56,108 nt of DNA from Clostridia bacterium (lineage in GTDB: Bacteria > Bacillota > Clostridia > Oscillospirales > Acutalibacteraceae), in contig JAILMJ010000055.1 in NCBI GenBank assembly GCA_024692685.1, positions 1 to 56,108 of the forward strand, given 5' to 3'. Every line of letters starts with the position of its first letter. Position 1 is the first letter of the stretch. Positions 9,172-14,526 of the stretch are shown here, piece after piece. The notes below the pieces were generated by a model. That model did not search any database. It saw only the letters and a program-made list of their open reading frames with translations, and was not told the DNA's origin. Made by a program: the position numbers and the translations under genes.

Positions 9172-9765
9172 AGTAATATTATCAACACCGCAAGCAAGCA
9201 TTTTCTTTATATTTTTTTCATCATTGACTGTCCAGACAGAGACAAGCAGACCTTCTTCGTGAAATATTTTTACCGCGTCGCCCTTGATATTTGGATAATG
9301 GGTATTTAAACCTATCGCTCCGCAGTCTTTGGTTTCCTTTGCGCATTTTCTTACTGACTTGCCGTAATTTCTGAGGAAAGTGGGGATATCGGCGTTGATA
9401 TAATAGGGCAGTGAAGAGTTGGCTCTGACCGTTTCGGCCCATTCTTTTCCGACACCGGTGAAAAAGGCCCGGTCGCTGAGCCCGTATTTTTTCAGGAGTT
9501 CATCGACAGCCGGAAGGTTGGCGGTTGACTTAAGGTCAAGATTCAACTGTATACTACCGTTCTCACATAAGAGAGAGAATGCGTCTTCAAGAAGTATGCC
9601 CTCATTACTGCCGGGACTGCCCTTGTGAATGATAACGGGTGTGCCTTCCGGGCGGAAGGTCACGTCTATCTCAAAAATCTCACAGTTTTCATCAAGAACT
9701 TTTCTGACGAATTCAAGAGAATTGTCCGGGGTATCAAACGCTCCGGAATGCGCAGTAATTGTCAT
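9130..9765 (-). CDS. Glycerophosphodiester phosphodiesterase family protein (cytoplasmic)
   Basis: A 211-residue GDPD-type TIM barrel: AHSGAFDTPDNSLEF near the N-terminus (the usual HRG is HSG here), EIDVTFRPEGTPVIIHKGS (catalytic Glu and His), LNLDLKS, and the late SVWTVNDEKNIKKMLACGVDNITSRHP. There is no signal peptide. It would hydrolyse glycerophosphodiesters to glycerol-3-phosphate. It lies 28 bases downstream of the Crp/Fnr gene and may be co-transcribed with it. Its 3' end overlaps the convergent ydcF gene by 42 bases. Compare the secreted homologue at 38182. Confidence 0.85.
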   Translation of the reverse strand: MTITAHSGAFDTPDNSLEFVRKVLDENCEIFEIDVTFRPEGTPVIIHKGSPGSNEGILLEDAFSLLCENGSIQLNLDLKSTANLPAVDELLKKYGLSDRAFFTGVGKEWAETVRANSSLPYYINADIPTFLRNYGKSVRKCAKETKDCGAIGLNTHYPNIKGDAVKIFHEEGLLVSVWTVNDEKNIKKMLACGVDNITSRHPDLVKKCIAD

Positions 9766-9783
9766 AATAATCTGCTCCGTTCC

Positions 9784-9807
9784 GAAAGCACCGTCACAGG
9801 TGCTTTC
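9784..9807. repeat. Hairpin between the crp/fnr and GDPD genes
   Basis: GAAAGCACC (9784-9792) and GGTGCTTTC (9799-9807) form a perfect 9-bp stem; the crp/fnr stop codon lies in the loop. A T-run follows on the plus strand only (9809-9818), where no gene ends, so on the minus strand it would act as an mRNA processing or stability hairpin rather than a classical terminator. Confidence 0.5.
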
Positions 9808-10462
9808 TGTATTTTTTTGTCAGTTTAAAACTGTTTTTCTTATAGTCTATCAGACCGTCCTTTTTCATTTTGGACAGTTCATTAGAGAGAGCGCTCCTGT
9901 CAATTCCGAGGTATTCCGCCAGCTGTTGGCGGTCATAGGGAATCAGGAAACTGTCGCCGTGCTCGTTTCTTTTCCGGGAGAGGAAAGACATAACGCGGCC
10001 TCTTATTGTCTTTGCCGAGGTATCCGCTATTTTGTCGGCAAGCAGTGAGTTGTTTTTTGCGCTCAGGCGGAAAAGATTACTTATAAAAACATATGAAACG
10101 GCGGGTTTGACTCCCGAGATACCAGAAAAATCCGGAAAGCCGATAAAGATTATTTCGCAGTCCTCTGCCGCCACAATATCGGCGGTAATAGGCATATGCG
10201 TGCCGAAACAGATTTCACCGAAAAACCCGTTTTTTTCTGTCAGGCAGTAGATTGTCTTTTTACCGTAAGTATCGGTTGACTCCGTCAGTACGCTTCCTTT
10301 AAGCACAATGCCGATTTCGTTTGTTTCTGACCCGCTGCTGAGGATGAATTCGTCCTTGTTGAACCGTCTCGAATTTGCTCCGAGGCGGTGGGCCAGTTCG
10401 TCAATATCCCTGTGAGAGATTCCGCTGAAGACTTCGAGGCCGTATAAATCCGCATTATTCAC
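9794..10462 (-). CDS. Crp/Fnr-family transcriptional regulator
   Basis: A 222-residue protein: cyclic-nucleotide-binding-type beta barrel at about 10-125 (GIVLKGSV, GFFGEICFGTHMP) and a C-terminal winged HTH (YDRQQLAEYLGIDRSALSNE, about 174-193). There is no Fnr-type N-terminal cysteine cluster, so it does not look like an iron-sulfur oxygen sensor; the effector could be a small molecule, haem or redox state. The start is GTG at 10462 with GGAAGGG upstream. It is divergent from the oxygen-defence operon and a palindrome in the gap (10477-10490) is well placed for control of both. Confidence 0.9.
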   Translation of the reverse strand: MNNADLYGLEVFSGISHRDIDELAHRLGANSRRFNKDEFILSSGSETNEIGIVLKGSVLTESTDTYGKKTIYCLTEKNGFFGEICFGTHMPITADIVAAEDCEIIFIGFPDFSGISGVKPAVSYVFISNLFRLSAKNNSLLADKIADTSAKTIRGRVMSFLSRKRNEHGDSFLIPYDRQQLAEYLGIDRSALSNELSKMKKDGLIDYKKNSFKLTKKYRKHL

Positions 10463-10476
10463 AAAATTTCCCTTCC

Positions 10477-10490
10477 GTTGTTAAAACAAC
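10477..10490. promoter_or_regulatory. Candidate Crp/Fnr operator
   Basis: GTTGTT-AA-AACAAC is a perfect 6-bp inverted repeat. Its centre (10483.5) lies 41.5 bases upstream of the start predicted from the plus-strand -10 box TATAAT (10513-10518), the class II activator position. The same site lies about 10-23 bases downstream of the predicted crp/fnr start, suited to autorepression. Confidence 0.65.
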
Positions 10491-10505
10491 ATACTTATTA
10501 ACCTA

Positions 10506-10534
10506 ATGATATTATAATACTTGTAACTTGTCAA
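10506..10534 (-). promoter_or_regulatory. Promoter of the crp/fnr gene
   Basis: Minus strand TTGACA (10529-10534), 17-base spacer, TATCAT (10506-10511). It overlaps the -10 region of the divergent oxygen-defence promoter. Confidence 0.65.
10513..10518 (+). promoter_or_regulatory. -10 box of the oxygen-defence operon promoter
   Basis: A perfect TATAAT with no recognisable -35 hexamer at the proper distance (10490-10495), as expected for an activator-dependent promoter. The leader to the first gene is about 60 bases. Confidence 0.6.
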
Positions 10535-10584
10535 GCCCGCTCAGCGGTTTTTCAGGGAAAAAATGAGGAATAAATATTGCGATT

Positions 10585-10788
10585 ATGAAAATACTGCTTA
10601 ATCCCGATAAAGAAACTGCGGCCGCCGTCAAGGAAGGCCTTAAACAAACGGGCGGTTACTGCCCTTGCAGAAGAGAGCGCACACCCGAAACAAAATGTAT
10701 GTGCGAAGAATTCAGAAATCAGATAAAAGACCCGGATTTTGAGGGCTTTTGTCATTGTATGCTTTACTATAAATCCAAGGAGGATTAA
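10585..10788 (+). CDS. Ferredoxin-thioredoxin reductase catalytic-domain-like protein
   Basis: A 67-residue protein with six cysteines as three CxC pairs: CPC (26-28), CMC (38-40) and CHC (56-58). This matches the redox-disulfide plus 4Fe-4S pattern of ferredoxin:thioredoxin reductase catalytic chains, though spacing (9 and 15) differs from the plant type and the protein is short. It would pass electrons from ferredoxin to the thioredoxin encoded four bases downstream. It is first in the oxygen-defence operon. The AAGGAGG for thioredoxin lies in its last codons. Confidence 0.82.
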   Translation: MKILLNPDKETAAAVKEGLKQTGGYCPCRRERTPETKCMCEEFRNQIKDPDFEGFCHCMLYYKSKED

Positions 10789-10791
10789 ACC

Positions 10792-11109
10792 GTGGCTGAG
10801 ATAAAAATCACAACTGCCGCTTTTGAAAAGGAAGTTCTTGAATCGGATATACCGGTACTTCTTGATTTCTGGGCACAGTGGTGCGGGCCATGCCGTATGC
10901 TTTCCCCGATAATTTCAGAAATAGCGGATGAATACGACGGCAGAATTAAAGTCGGAAAAATAAACGTTGATGAAGAACCTGTTCTTGCAAATATGTTCAA
11001 TATTTCGGCGATCCCGATGGTTGCCGTAATCAAGAACGGCAAAATGACCGCTTCGGATGTAGGTTACAAATCAAAAGAACAAATTGAAGAATTACTCAGG
11101 CATGGATGA
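10792..11109 (+). CDS. Thioredoxin
   Basis: A 105-residue thioredoxin with the active site WCGPC (30-34) and the cis-Pro block ISAIPMVAV. The start is GTG at 10792 with AAGGAGG 7 bases upstream inside the end of the preceding gene. Its position between an FTR-like protein and a flavodiiron protein suggests that it delivers reducing power to peroxide or oxygen defence, or repairs disulfides after oxygen exposure. Confidence 0.95.
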   Translation: MAEIKITTAAFEKEVLESDIPVLLDFWAQWCGPCRMLSPIISEIADEYDGRIKVGKINVDEEPVLANMFNISAIPMVAVIKNGKMTASDVGYKSKEQIEELLRHG

Positions 11110-11113
11110 AAAG

Positions 11114-12904
11114 ATGAAGATTACAAACGATATTATTTATGTAGGTGTTAATGACCGCATTATTGACCTTTTCGAGGGGCAGTATATTGTTCCCAACGGG
11201 ATGGCTTACAACTCGTATGTTATCCTTGACGAAAAAACAGCGGTTATGGATTCAGTTGACAAAAAGTTTACGCACGAGTGGCTTGATAATGTTGCCGATG
11301 CTCTTGCAGGGCGCTCGCCGGACTATCTTATCGTTCAGCATATGGAACCCGATCATTCCGCGAACATTGTCAACTTTCTCAAAGCCTATCCTTCCGCAAC
11401 CGTCGTTTCCTCGGCAAAAGCATTCACGATGATGAAGAACTTTTTCGGCGACGAATTTGAGGACAGACGCTTGGTTATTGCGGACGGCAGCACACTTTCT
11501 CTCGGAAAGCACACATTAAACTTTGTAGCTGCTCCGATGGTTCACTGGCCGGAGGTTATGATGACCTATGACAGCACTGATAAGGTCTTCTTCTCCGCGG
11601 ATGCTTTCGGTAAATTCGGCGCGCTTGACGCCGACGAGGATTGGGCCTGCGAGGCAAGAAGGTATTATATCGGCATCGTAGGTAAATACGGAGTTCAGGT
11701 CCAGGCGCTGCTCAAAAAGGCAGCCTCGCTTGATATACAAACCATCTGCCCTCTTCACGGACCCATTCTGACCGAGAACCTGGGTTATTATCTCGGCCTC
11801 TATGACACCTGGTCATCCTACGGTGTTGAGAGCGAGGGGATAGTGATAGCCTATACCTCTGTTTACGGCAACACTCAGAGAGCGGCAGAACTGCTTGCGG
11901 AAAAGCTCAAGGCCAAGGGCTGCCCCAAGGTGGTGCTCAATGATCTTGCCCGAAGCGATATGGCCGAATGTGTTGAGGACGCTTTCAGATACGGCAAAAT
12001 AGTTCTCGCCACAACAACTTATAACGCAGATATTTTCCCCTTTATGCGTGAATTTATCAATCATCTCACTGAGCGCGGATTTAAGAACAAAACCGTCGCT
12101 CTGATTGAGAATGGCTCCTGGGCGCCTCTTGCCGCAAAGGTTATGAGAGGAATGCTTGAAAACTGCAAAAACCTGACCTTTACCGAAACCACTGTAAGAA
12201 TTACCTCGGCGCTCAATGACAGCAGTAAGGAGCAGATTGAGAATCTTGCCGGTGAGCTTTGCAGGGACTATATCGCGCAGAGCAGTGAGACAGCAAACAA
12301 AAATGACCTTACCGCTTTATTTAAGATAGGTTACGGACTCTATGTCGTGACCTCGAATGACGGCAAAAAAGATAACGGGTTGATTGTCAACACTGTTTCG
12401 CAGGTGACCAACGCTCCCAACAGAGTGGCGGTTTGTATCAATAAAGACAACTATTCACACCATGTGATAAAGCAGACAGGGATAATGAATGTCAACTGCC
12501 TGTCGGTTGAAGCTCCGTTCAAGGTGTTTGAATCGTTCGGCTTCAGAAGCGGCAGAAATGTTGACAAATTTGAGAATTGCGAGCCTCTCAGATCAGATAA
12601 CGGTTTGGTTTTCCTGCCGAAATACATCAACGCATTTATGTCTCTGAAAGTTGAGCAGTATGTCGATCTCGGTACCCACGGTATGTTTATCTGCTCAGTT
12701 ACGGAGGCAAGGGTTATTTCCGATAAGGAAACCATGACATATACCTACTATCAGGATAACGTTAAACCCAAGCCCGAAATAAAAGGCAAAAAGGGCTGGG
12801 TATGTAAGATTTGCGGCTATGTTTATGAAGGTGATGAATTGCCGGATGATTTTGTCTGTCCGCTTTGCAAACACGGAGCCGCCGATTTTGAACCTATCGG
12901 TTAA
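11114..12904 (+). CDS. Multidomain flavodiiron protein (flavodiiron + flavin reductase + rubredoxin)
   Basis: A 596-residue protein reducing oxygen to water and/or NO to nitrous oxide. Residues 1-240 are the metallo-beta-lactamase-like domain with a full diiron set (HMEPDH: H76, E78, D80, H81; then H144, D163, H215). About 243-390 is a flavodoxin domain (IAYTSVYGNTQRAAE). About 400-545 is a flavin-reductase-type FMN domain (YGLYVVTSNDGKKDNGLIVN). About 553-590 is a rubredoxin (CKICGYVYEG, CPLC). The fusion can in principle carry NAD(P)H or rubredoxin electrons to the diiron site. The start is uncertain: the ATG at 11114 matches typical family N-termini (MKITNDI), but an ATG at 11102, overlapping the thioredoxin stop, is possible. 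Confidence 0.93.
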   Translation: MKITNDIIYVGVNDRIIDLFEGQYIVPNGMAYNSYVILDEKTAVMDSVDKKFTHEWLDNVADALAGRSPDYLIVQHMEPDHSANIVNFLKAYPSATVVSSAKAFTMMKNFFGDEFEDRRLVIADGSTLSLGKHTLNFVAAPMVHWPEVMMTYDSTDKVFFSADAFGKFGALDADEDWACEARRYYIGIVGKYGVQVQALLKKAASLDIQTICPLHGPILTENLGYYLGLYDTWSSYGVESEGIVIAYTSVYGNTQRAAELLAEKLKAKGCPKVVLNDLARSDMAECVEDAFRYGKIVLATTTYNADIFPFMREFINHLTERGFKNKTVALIENGSWAPLAAKVMRGMLENCKNLTFTETTVRITSALNDSSKEQIENLAGELCRDYIAQSSETANKNDLTALFKIGYGLYVVTSNDGKKDNGLIVNTVSQVTNAPNRVAVCINKDNYSHHVIKQTGIMNVNCLSVEAPFKVFESFGFRSGRNVDKFENCEPLRSDNGLVFLPKYINAFMSLKVEQYVDLGTHGMFICSVTEARVISDKETMTYTYYQDNVKPKPEIKGKKGWVCKICGYVYEGDELPDDFVCPLCKHGAADFEPIG

Positions 12905-12962
12905 ATAAGGGCAGCCGTTTACGGTCAGAGCCCTAATCTGATATAGAAAAGGAGAAATCATA

Positions 12963-13118
12963 ATGAAGTACATTTGCGATGCCTGCGGCTGGGAATATGA
13001 CGAAGCTGTCGGTGATCCCGACAACGGTATAGCTCCCGGCACAAAATTTGAAGACCTTCCGGACGACTTTGTCTGCCCCGTTTGCGGAGTAGGTAAAGAT
13101 ATGTTCTCGGAAGAATAA
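12963..13118 (+). CDS. Rubredoxin
   Basis: A 51-residue protein: [13 protein letters not shown], then [18 protein letters not shown]. Both CxxC pairs that hold the single iron are present, with the usual Pro/Asp-rich middle. AAAAGGAG lies upstream of the ATG. It sits between the flavodiiron gene and superoxide reductase and is their likely electron donor. Confidence 0.97.
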
Positions 13119-13131
13119 GGGGGGCAGAACT

Positions 13132-13506
13132 ATGGAAATGAAGTTTTACAGATGCGCCCATTGCGGTAAGATTATCGCCGTTGTTAAGGAAACCGGAGTT
13201 CCGGTTATATGCTGCGGTGAAAAGATGCAGGAAATCATTCCCGGAACAACAGACGCTGCTGTTGAGAAGCATGTTCCCGTTTATGAGGTCAAAGACGGGA
13301 TCGTTACCGTCACTGTCGGTTCGGTTCCCCATCCTATGCTCGAGGAGCATTACATTGAATGGATATCCCTTCAGACAACATCAGGAAATCAGCGTAAGGC
13401 GCTCAAACCCGGCTCCGAGCCAAAGGTATGCTTTGCCATTTGCGAAGGCGATGAGGTAGAGGCGGTTTATGCTTATTGCAATCTTCATTCACTGTGGAAA
13501 TCTTAA
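13132..13506 (+). CDS. Desulfoferrodoxin-type superoxide reductase
   Basis: A 124-residue protein. The N-terminal desulforedoxin-like iron site has C8, C11, C27 and C28 (CAHC, CC). The superoxide reductase centre has EKHVP (E44, H46), HPM (H66), EEHYIEW (H72) and CNLHSLW (C115, H118), giving the four His and one Cys ligands. It reduces superoxide to peroxide, which the rubrerythrin encoded next can remove. It starts 13 bases after the rubredoxin stop with a GGGGGG-rich ribosome binding site. Confidence 0.96.
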   Translation: MEMKFYRCAHCGKIIAVVKETGVPVICCGEKMQEIIPGTTDAAVEKHVPVYEVKDGIVTVTVGSVPHPMLEEHYIEWISLQTTSGNQRKALKPGSEPKVCFAICEGDEVEAVYAYCNLHSLWKS

Positions 13507-13521
13507 CGGAGGATAAGAATT

Positions 13522-14166
13522 ATGAAAACTTACAAATGTCTTGTTTGCGGAAAAATTTTTGAAGTCGAAGACGGCGCTGAACCCGTATGCCCCGTTTGCA
13601 AAGCAACAGGTGACAAACTTGTGCTTATGAGCAACCCTTACGCAGGCACCAAGACCGAAAAAAATCTTGAAGCTGCCTTTGCAGGTGAGTCTCAGGCAAG
13701 AAATAAATATACATACTTTGCTTCAAAGGCAAAGAAGGAAGGTTTCGAGCAGATAGCAGCTCTCTTCCTTAAAACCGCCGACAACGAAAAAGAGCACGCC
13801 AAAATGTGGTTCAAGGAGCTCAACGGTATAGGCAGCACAGCCGATAATCTCGGCGCCGCCGCCGCGGGTGAAAACTTCGAGTGGACCGATATGTACGAAG
13901 GCTTTGCTGTAACAGCCGAAGAAGAAGGCTTCCCCGAGCTCGCAAAGAAATTCCGCATGGTCGCCGCTATTGAGAAGCATCACGAAGAGCGTTACCGTGC
14001 ACTTCTTAAAAACGTTGAAACCGCTCAGGTATTTGAGAAGAGCGAAGTCAAAATCTGGGAATGCAGAAACTGCGGTCACATTGTTATCGGTGAGAAAGCT
14101 CCTGAAATCTGCCCCGTATGCGCTCATCCTCAGAGCTATTTTGAGATTAACGCAGAAAACTATTGA
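13522..14166 (+). CDS. Rubrerythrin with N- and C-terminal rubredoxin-like domains
   Basis: A 214-residue protein. Residues 1-35 form a short rubredoxin-like knuckle pair (CLVC 6-9, CPVC 23-26). Residues 45-165 are the diiron four-helix bundle with Glu/His motifs ([38 protein letters not shown]). Residues about 175-210 are the C-terminal rubredoxin (CRNCG, CPVC). Rubrerythrin reduces hydrogen peroxide using rubredoxin electrons. The extra N-terminal rubredoxin module is less common than the C-terminal one. Last gene of the operon, followed by a strong terminator. Confidence 0.95.
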
Positions 14167-14220
14167 TTCAGAGACAAAGTCTGTTTCGTTTCGGAAAGTA
14201 ATCCGATAGTGTTTCATCCG

Positions 14221-14256
14221 ACTGCTGCCGGGATTAACCGGCAGCAGTTTTTTCTT
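14221..14256 (+). terminator. Terminator of the oxygen-defence operon
   Basis: Perfect 11-bp stem ACTGCTGCCGG (14221-14231) with CCGGCAGCAGT (14238-14248), then TTTTTTC. Confidence 0.93.
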
Positions 14257-14298
14257 TCATACAGCAGTTTGGATTTGTTAATAATTTTAAAAAAAATA

Positions 14299-14327
14299 TT
14301 GACATAACAGTTTCAATATGATAACAT
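14299..14327 (+). promoter_or_regulatory. Strong promoter of the 47-residue peptide gene
   Basis: TTGACA (14299-14304), 17-base spacer, TAACAT (14322-14327), preceded by an A-rich UP-like tract (14289-14296). It lies downstream of the previous operon's terminator, so the small gene is an independent unit. Confidence 0.75.
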
Positions 14328-14382
14328 ACAAAGTAGTTAGTATATCCTAACGGAATTGATTACAGAAAGGAGTTCGCGCACT

Positions 14383-14526
14383 ATGGGATTTCTCGACACT
14401 ATCGTAGCTTTGCTTAATCTTGTTGCCGGCGGCTTCGGCACATCTGCTGACTTTGCTGTCGCATACGGCGATCTTACATCTCTTATCGCCGCTATTCTCG
14501 AATTCCTCGGCTCATTTGCGGGCTGA
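14383..14526 (+). CDS. Small hydrophobic 47-residue protein, unknown function
   Basis: ATG at 14383 with AAAGGAG 11 bases upstream and TGA at 14524-14526. The peptide begins MGFLDTIVALLNLVAGGFG, has a polar middle (TSADFAVAYGDLTSL) and ends in a second hydrophobic stretch IAAILEFLGSFAG. There are no Cys or Lys/Arg residues and the net charge is negative; the two hydrophobic halves could form a membrane hairpin. It has its own strong promoter and terminator (14559-14590), unlikely for a chance frame. I do not recognise a family; a toxin, secreted amphipathic peptide or structural membrane peptide are possibilities. Confidence 0.65.
   Translation: MGFLDTIVALLNLVAGGFGTSADFAVAYGDLTSLIAAILEFLGSFAG

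Follow-up and report, generated by a model that had tools for sequence, protein, structure and literature searches.

A putative class II operator shared by a Crp/Fnr-family regulator gene and a divergent oxygen-defence operon in gut Clostridia

The palindrome lying between a Crp/Fnr-family regulator gene and a divergent oxygen-defence operon in a Clostridia bacterium is probably the operator of that adjoining regulator (we put this reading at about 0.8), from which the regulator dimer would activate the operon in class II fashion and also block the regulator's own promoter. The identity of the operator, its conservation and its register are evident in the sequence, and from there we infer binding, activation and repression. 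Strict gut anaerobes need a response to oxygen and nitric oxide (NO), and how flavodiiron and related genes are switched on is poorly known in many of them. The layout of operator, regulator and operon described here recurs across many gut Clostridia, and its fixed register of 21 bp predicts direct targets from sequence alone.

Genes and opposing promoters in the window

The window, by which we mean the whole analysed stretch of 56,108 nucleotides (contig JAILMJ010000055.1 of assembly GCA_024692685.1), carries the regulator gene on the minus strand at 9794..10462. It begins with GTG, encodes 222 aa and is the sole cNMP_binding gene found in the assembly, which is 91% complete. The product belongs to the Crp/Fnr superfamily by a cNMP-binding-type domain and a Crp-type winged helix, with matches to PF00027 (E 4.1e-13) and PF13545 (E 2.6e-10), both above cut-off; it reaches no more than 42-43% identity with the relatives compared, and sits on a long branch (1.19, FastTree). 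Divergent from it on the plus strand are genes for a small protein like the catalytic chain of ferredoxin-thioredoxin reductase (10585..10788; Pfam FeThRed_B, E 2.7e-4, slightly below the curated cut-off), a thioredoxin (10792..11109), a flavodiiron protein (FDP) fused to flavin reductase and rubredoxin domains (11108..12904), a rubredoxin (12963..13118), a desulfoferrodoxin or superoxide reductase (13132..13506), and a rubrerythrin (13522..14166). A likely intrinsic terminator on the same strand, a 12-pair stem followed by a T run (14220..14249), would close the operon; the terminator scan gave 6 such sites where 5.2 were expected. The 67-aa product of the first operon gene has homologs in 115 of the 394 genomes of the order, and among 29 such loci fetched only two apart from the window (L052 and L053) show an FDP within 1.5 kb of that homolog.

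The palindrome GTTGTT-AA-AACAAC at 10477-10490, centred at 10483.5, has no second exact copy in the 2.27-Mb assembly. Judged from the homologous sites described below, the conserved core is the 16-mer TGTTG-N6-CAACA rather than this 6-2-6 form, and the putative operator of the window, CGTTG-TTAAAA-CAACA at 10476..10491, agrees with it at 9/10 positions. From the edge of the 16-mer it is 21 bp to a plus-strand TATAAT (10513..10518), the predicted -10 of the defence operon, with a start expected near 10525; this promoter lacks a -35, the best match being 2/6 at spacers of 15-19, and the palindrome is centred at -41.5 if transcription begins 7 nt past the TATAAT. On the minus strand, the -35 TTGACA (10529..10534) and the -10 TATCAT (10506..10511) form the predicted regulator promoter, TTGACA-17-TATCAT (10534-10506), which at 11/12 is the top promoter-like match in 9700-14400, from a scan that returned 9 matches against 7.3 expected. 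Its start would fall near 10499, so that the palindrome is centred at about +15.5, within the predicted regulator leader and just 5' of the likely ribosome-binding site GGAAGGG (10470..10476, minus strand), which was read from the sequence. The -10 of the regulator and the -10 of the operon are one base apart.

These positions bear out two proposals of the sequence-only reading, that the palindrome stands at -41.5 from a start predicted by a -10 without a -35, and that it lies just downstream of the predicted crp/fnr start. Class II activation by CRP and FNR in E. coli uses a dimer site centred at -41.5 at promoters with a poor -35. The operon promoter is, as a sequence prediction, of this class, with the operator at -41.5 and a -10 that has no good -35. 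In the absence of active regulator, polymerase would occupy the complete regulator promoter, and a little regulator would be made. An activated dimer on the operator at -41.5 would recruit RNA polymerase to the -35-less operon promoter by the class II route and, lying at about +15 of the regulator promoter, would also block the start region there. Since the two -10s are one base apart, polymerase should not start both ways at once, and which way it goes would be set by the bound dimer.

Could the regulator instead repress the operon from the palindrome, with stress releasing it? A dimer at -41.5 before a -35-less -10 has the recognised geometry of a class II activator, which renders this improbable. 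Clostridial oxygen-defence genes are often under repressors, PerR in C. acetobutylicum and Rex together with OseR in C. difficile, according to the available text of PMC11481553, but the available text of PMC12915319 has HcpR of C. difficile activating its linked genes.

Taken alone, the palindrome does not exceed chance, whereas the conservation of its sequence and spacing, set out below, does. The window holds 28 perfect 6-2-6 palindromes, and at least one such palindrome occurs in 8% of shuffled 122-bp gaps; within the window by itself the palindrome is not significant. A loose search of the window's genome with TGTTGTTNNAACAACA, allowing up to 3 mismatches, showed no enrichment, the reversed control matching at 268 places and the pattern itself at 177. 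At one mismatch the window's own genome held no further match to operator plus register. Two other one-mismatch palindromes listed from it (L111 and L112) were not taken as operators, both lying inside long reading frames.

Conservation of the operator and its register

Homologs of the regulator were sought by protein similarity and matched in 45 of 99 relatives and in 253 of 394 genomes of the order. The best 30 loci were fetched from each of these two sets, together with 80 from a named genome collection, chosen as those most similar to the window protein, which favours members like it; the query for this last search was a 24-protein alignment, A1, in which six proteins came from pattern-found loci (L121-L190). 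Regulators were kept if 195-260 aa long, each distinct sequence once, and 2 of the 80 named loci in which no start codon was found (L208 and L243) were set aside, leaving 78. With later-fetched loci pooled in, 102 and 78 rows gave 172 distinct regulators once identical and unplaced proteins had been removed.

TGTTG-N6-CAACA occurs at 9/10 or better within 200 bp upstream of 118 of the 172 regulators, the window's included; for this 16-mer, 100 Markov-shuffled sets averaged 1.4 and never exceeded 6. The 54 regulators without such a site comprise 17 with a TGTGG variant, 16 with a site at 8/10 and 21 with none. The operator stays with these regulators in different families of the order and in named genera. 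Operator plus 21-bp spacing, at no more than one mismatch, was found in 148 of the 394 genomes, and the reversed control gave 26 by hand count.

The register was counted, and a profile built, with the pattern-selected loci (L121-L190) left out. Outside these, a site lies within 120 bp upstream of 84 of 140 regulators, and in 74 of the 84, as in the window, a -10 matching at least 5/6 stands at an offset of exactly 21 bp; the other 10 have no -10 at that offset. Exact TATAAT occurs 33 times at offset 21, the remaining offsets between 0 and 59 together accounting for 4, and no such peak appears in the 34 upstream regions that lack a site, with 1 at offset 21. In the profile, which covers 79 loci (5 of the 84 sites were dropped for missing flank), TGTTG-N6-CAACA is followed by ATTATA-n-TATAAT and then, on the far side, by TCAAG, which is the -35 of the regulator promoter read from the opposite strand, 17 bp from its -10. 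This is the layout of a TTGA-17-TATAAT regulator promoter opposite a -35-less operon promoter, the two -10s one base apart and facing away from each other. As back-to-back -10s are nearly symmetric, some of the -10 signal may come from the opposite-strand promoter; the counts of exact TATAAT and the differing -10s of the window argue against such an origin.

Conservation of the palindrome in relatives that keep the gene pair had been set beforehand as a test of the circuit, and the circuit withstood it. A regulator homolog and an FDP share one stretch in 18 fetched loci (L091-L108). The palindrome scores 9/10 or better in every one of these except L101, whose regulator is only 24% identical, and each of the 17 loci bearing it has a -10 of 5/6 or better exactly 21 bp away. 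The first divergent gene in these loci encodes a 4Fe-4S ferredoxin-like protein, D-lactate dehydrogenase, rubredoxin or the FDP itself. In some, the ferredoxin-like or D-lactate dehydrogenase gene comes first after the operator and the FDP farther along, and in L106 the FDP is on the opposite side of the regulator, 5.5 kb off.

A further 40 loci were fetched by the pattern of operator, 21 bp and TATAAT, 39 of them exact and one with a mismatch, and their downstream genes were assigned by reading, with family checks on nine examples. These genes are ferredoxin-like (15 loci), D-lactate dehydrogenase (5), FDP (5), NrdD or NrdD-like (3), DUF1858, associated with hybrid cluster protein (2), ECF transporter (2), small or cupin proteins (2), FecCD permease (2, one checked), rubredoxin (1) and unclear (3). 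Several stand on stretches without any regulator homolog. The exact operator and register precede an FDP 72% identical to that of the window in L159, a distant FDP homolog (30%) in L189, and D-lactate dehydrogenase in L157 and L187. Likewise, the DUF1858 or redox disulfide protein (TIGR03980) of L174 and L176 has an exact class II site of its own, with no regulator homolog in the stretch. NrdD, the anaerobic ribonucleotide reductase, lies behind the operator in L154, and a small NrdD-like protein does so in L152 and L153, where a regulator homolog is on the divergent side. D-lactate dehydrogenase follows the operator at the class II position in L096, L099, L105, L156, L157, L160, L170 and L187 (family checked for L157), which suggests that fermentation may be rerouted under the same signal.

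Such loci bear on whether the palindrome serves autoregulation only, the regulator repressing its own gene and the operon -10 being used by other means. For 87 of the 118 regulators the operator is centred 20-24 nt before the start codon irrespective of which gene lies next to it, and the regulator promoter is the complete one, both as autoregulation would have it. Against this stand the exact spacing of the operon-side -10 in 74/84 loci and the exact operators in register before FDP, D-lactate dehydrogenase and DUF1858 genes with no regulator homolog nearby; these unlinked sites are thus not by-products of autoregulation, and we regard a purely autoregulatory role as unlikely. The same loci tell against the idea that the inverted repeat works as an RNA hairpin in the 5' leader of the regulator. 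The repeat is predicted to be transcribed in that leader, directly before the ribosome-binding site, but the leader folds not clearly better than shuffles (z -0.93) and its predicted fold is a different structure, and at the unlinked sites the repeat lies upstream of the predicted start, outside the transcript, so that a hairpin role is extremely improbable.

The genus of the window provides a control for the reading of the palindrome as the regulator's operator. An FDP match is encoded in 41 of 45 genomes of the genus. The 29 congener FDP loci fetched, L282 with the gene in part only, were free of regulator homologs over about 1.5 kb on each side, and in the 250 bp before the FDP no 16-mer reached 9/10; in L292 and L294 one occurs more than 1.1 kb upstream. 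By these counts the operator appears to go with the regulator and not with the FDP enzyme. In 28 listed congener matches (with L284-L303 among the loci), similarity to the window FDP ends between residues 323 and 429, and in 14 of those 28 genomes the flavin reductase-rubredoxin part was matched separately elsewhere, so the fused FDP of the window appears split in those congeners.

The control also concerns the proposal that some other regulator, such as the single Fur/PerR-family protein of this genome, governs the operon and the palindrome is incidental. One FUR-family gene does lie elsewhere in the assembly, and PerR represses such genes in C. acetobutylicum (available text of PMC11481553), but the palindrome follows the Crp/Fnr regulators from family to family and genus to genus and is missing near the FDP in the 29 congener loci without a linked regulator, leaving this explanation very unlikely.

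Cysteine and histidine residues of the regulator family

FNR, the oxygen sensor with a [4Fe-4S] cluster, is defined by an N-terminal cysteine cluster. The regulator of the window lacks it, having cysteines at residues 73, 85 and 102 only; the sequence-only reading was right on this point, and most of the relatives compared carry a different set of cysteines and histidine. Among 102 homologs, in window numbering, C26 is found in 80, C116 in 83, C120 in 85 and H123 in 87, and a cysteine at the position of residue 87 in 63. The set shared by most relatives (loci L001-L270) is therefore C26 and C116-x3-C120-x2-H123, often with C87, and is unlike that of FNR; it is a possible metal or Fe-S site, as judged from sequence, and hence a possible sensor site. 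The window regulator has none of these residues, reading R, G, S, P and S at the five places. For one relative with the cysteines, L086, the predicted structure has a mean pLDDT of 89.8.

When a cysteine near 26 together with C-x3-C-x2-H is scored as intact and neither as lost (one or two of the residues survive in some of the lost class), the 172 regulators divide into 108 intact, 59 lost (including the window's) and 5 partial. The FastTree tree, a quick method with long branches here, implies at least 6 changes of the set. The 21-bp register is kept in 49 of 55 intact, 17 of 22 lost and 2 of 2 partial members, and its persistence in all three classes, together with the repeated loss of the set, indicates that the DNA switch was retained through more than one change of the sensing part. 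The TGTGG-N6-CCACA variant of the operator, found in 17 of 172, occurs only upstream of regulators scored as lost (for example L073, L082, L191, L192, L201 and L202). Relatives with and without the set on the same operator offer a natural comparison.

The input is most likely NO or oxygen-linked redox stress, to go by the target genes and by HcpR of C. difficile, and would in the window's member be sensed without the Cys/His set. More tentatively, and less likely than not, these regulators may form a large undescribed branch of gut-Clostridia redox sensors, whose usual form would bind a metal or Fe-S cluster through the N-terminal cysteine, C87 and the C-x3-C-x2-H loop and act at a two-way promoter whose -10s are separated by a single base; the lineage of the window might then have dropped the sensor site and kept the operator, the switch having moved from a ferredoxin gene to a whole oxygen/NO defence operon.

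Relation to known Crp/Fnr systems

The closest resemblances are to HcpR, likewise a Crp/Fnr protein without the FNR cysteines and with redox-stress genes as targets. When the recognition helix is aligned by eye with R180-E181 of CRP, the family reads R-S, with R189 in 102/102 homologs and S190 in 98/102. The window regulator thereby shares a Ser at CRP position 181 with HcpR2 of C. thermocellum and C. difficile, whose motifs, in the available text of PMC1274295, differ from GTAACnnnnGTTAC. The commonest divergent gene, in 53 of the 78 named loci by hand count, is ferredoxin-like (4Fe-4S), as in Blautia caecimuris (L223) and Ruminococcus flavefaciens (L257), which have the operator too, and is called frdX-like by resemblance only; in C. 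difficile, frdX is linked to hcpR, HcpR activates the linked frdX-hcp on NO, and an hcpR mutant is not more sensitive to menadione or H2O2 (all from the available portion of PMC12915319). HcpR of B. thetaiotaomicron binds heme, as far as the accessible part of PMC13370916 describes it.

Unlike in HcpR systems, the divergent operon of the window is ftr-trx-FDP-Rd-SOR-Rbr, without linked hcp or frdX, and the operator is TGTTG-N6-CAACA as against GTAACnnnnGTTAC for HcpR2 and TGTGA-N6-TCACA for HcpR1, a comparison drawn from the available text of the same HcpR source and not including the motifs of the Ser181 HcpR2 proteins. The window assembly, at its 91% completeness, gave no Prismane match and hence no Hcp, and no close ferredoxin of the frdX type, the best being 42% over 60 aa (E 2.2e-6). 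Given the resemblances and the missing Hcp, we describe the regulator as HcpR-like and not as HcpR. A profile search of solved structures brought up relatives but no HcpR identification; the best-scoring structure by the family sequence profile was Listeria Lmo0753 (PDB 7t8o, E 4e-29), whose aligned stretch, unlike the regulator family, lacks the Cys/His set.

The core TGTTG-N6-CAACA also differs from the FNR box, of consensus TTGAT-N4-ATCAA in the available text of PMC1274295. With the class II promoters of CRP and FNR in E. coli the operon promoter shares the predicted dimer site at -41.5 and the poor -35; it differs in its operator, in that the same site also covers the region where the regulator's own transcript would start, and in that no cAMP or FNR-cluster residues are established in the window regulator.

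A literature search outside RegPrecise and supplementary files returned no description of this operator or of an FDP under such a regulator, and as far as literature searches could show, the operator, the target set and the lost Cys/His site are new. In kind the switch is ordinary, a class II, self-limiting Crp/Fnr switch. The sequence-only reading had offered a new signal-to-operon circuit: the circuit is upheld by 17/18 FDP loci, 118/172 regulators and 74/84 sites in register, but its claim to novelty has to be scaled back, the circuit of the window appearing to be one local form of an HcpR-like switch that is widespread.
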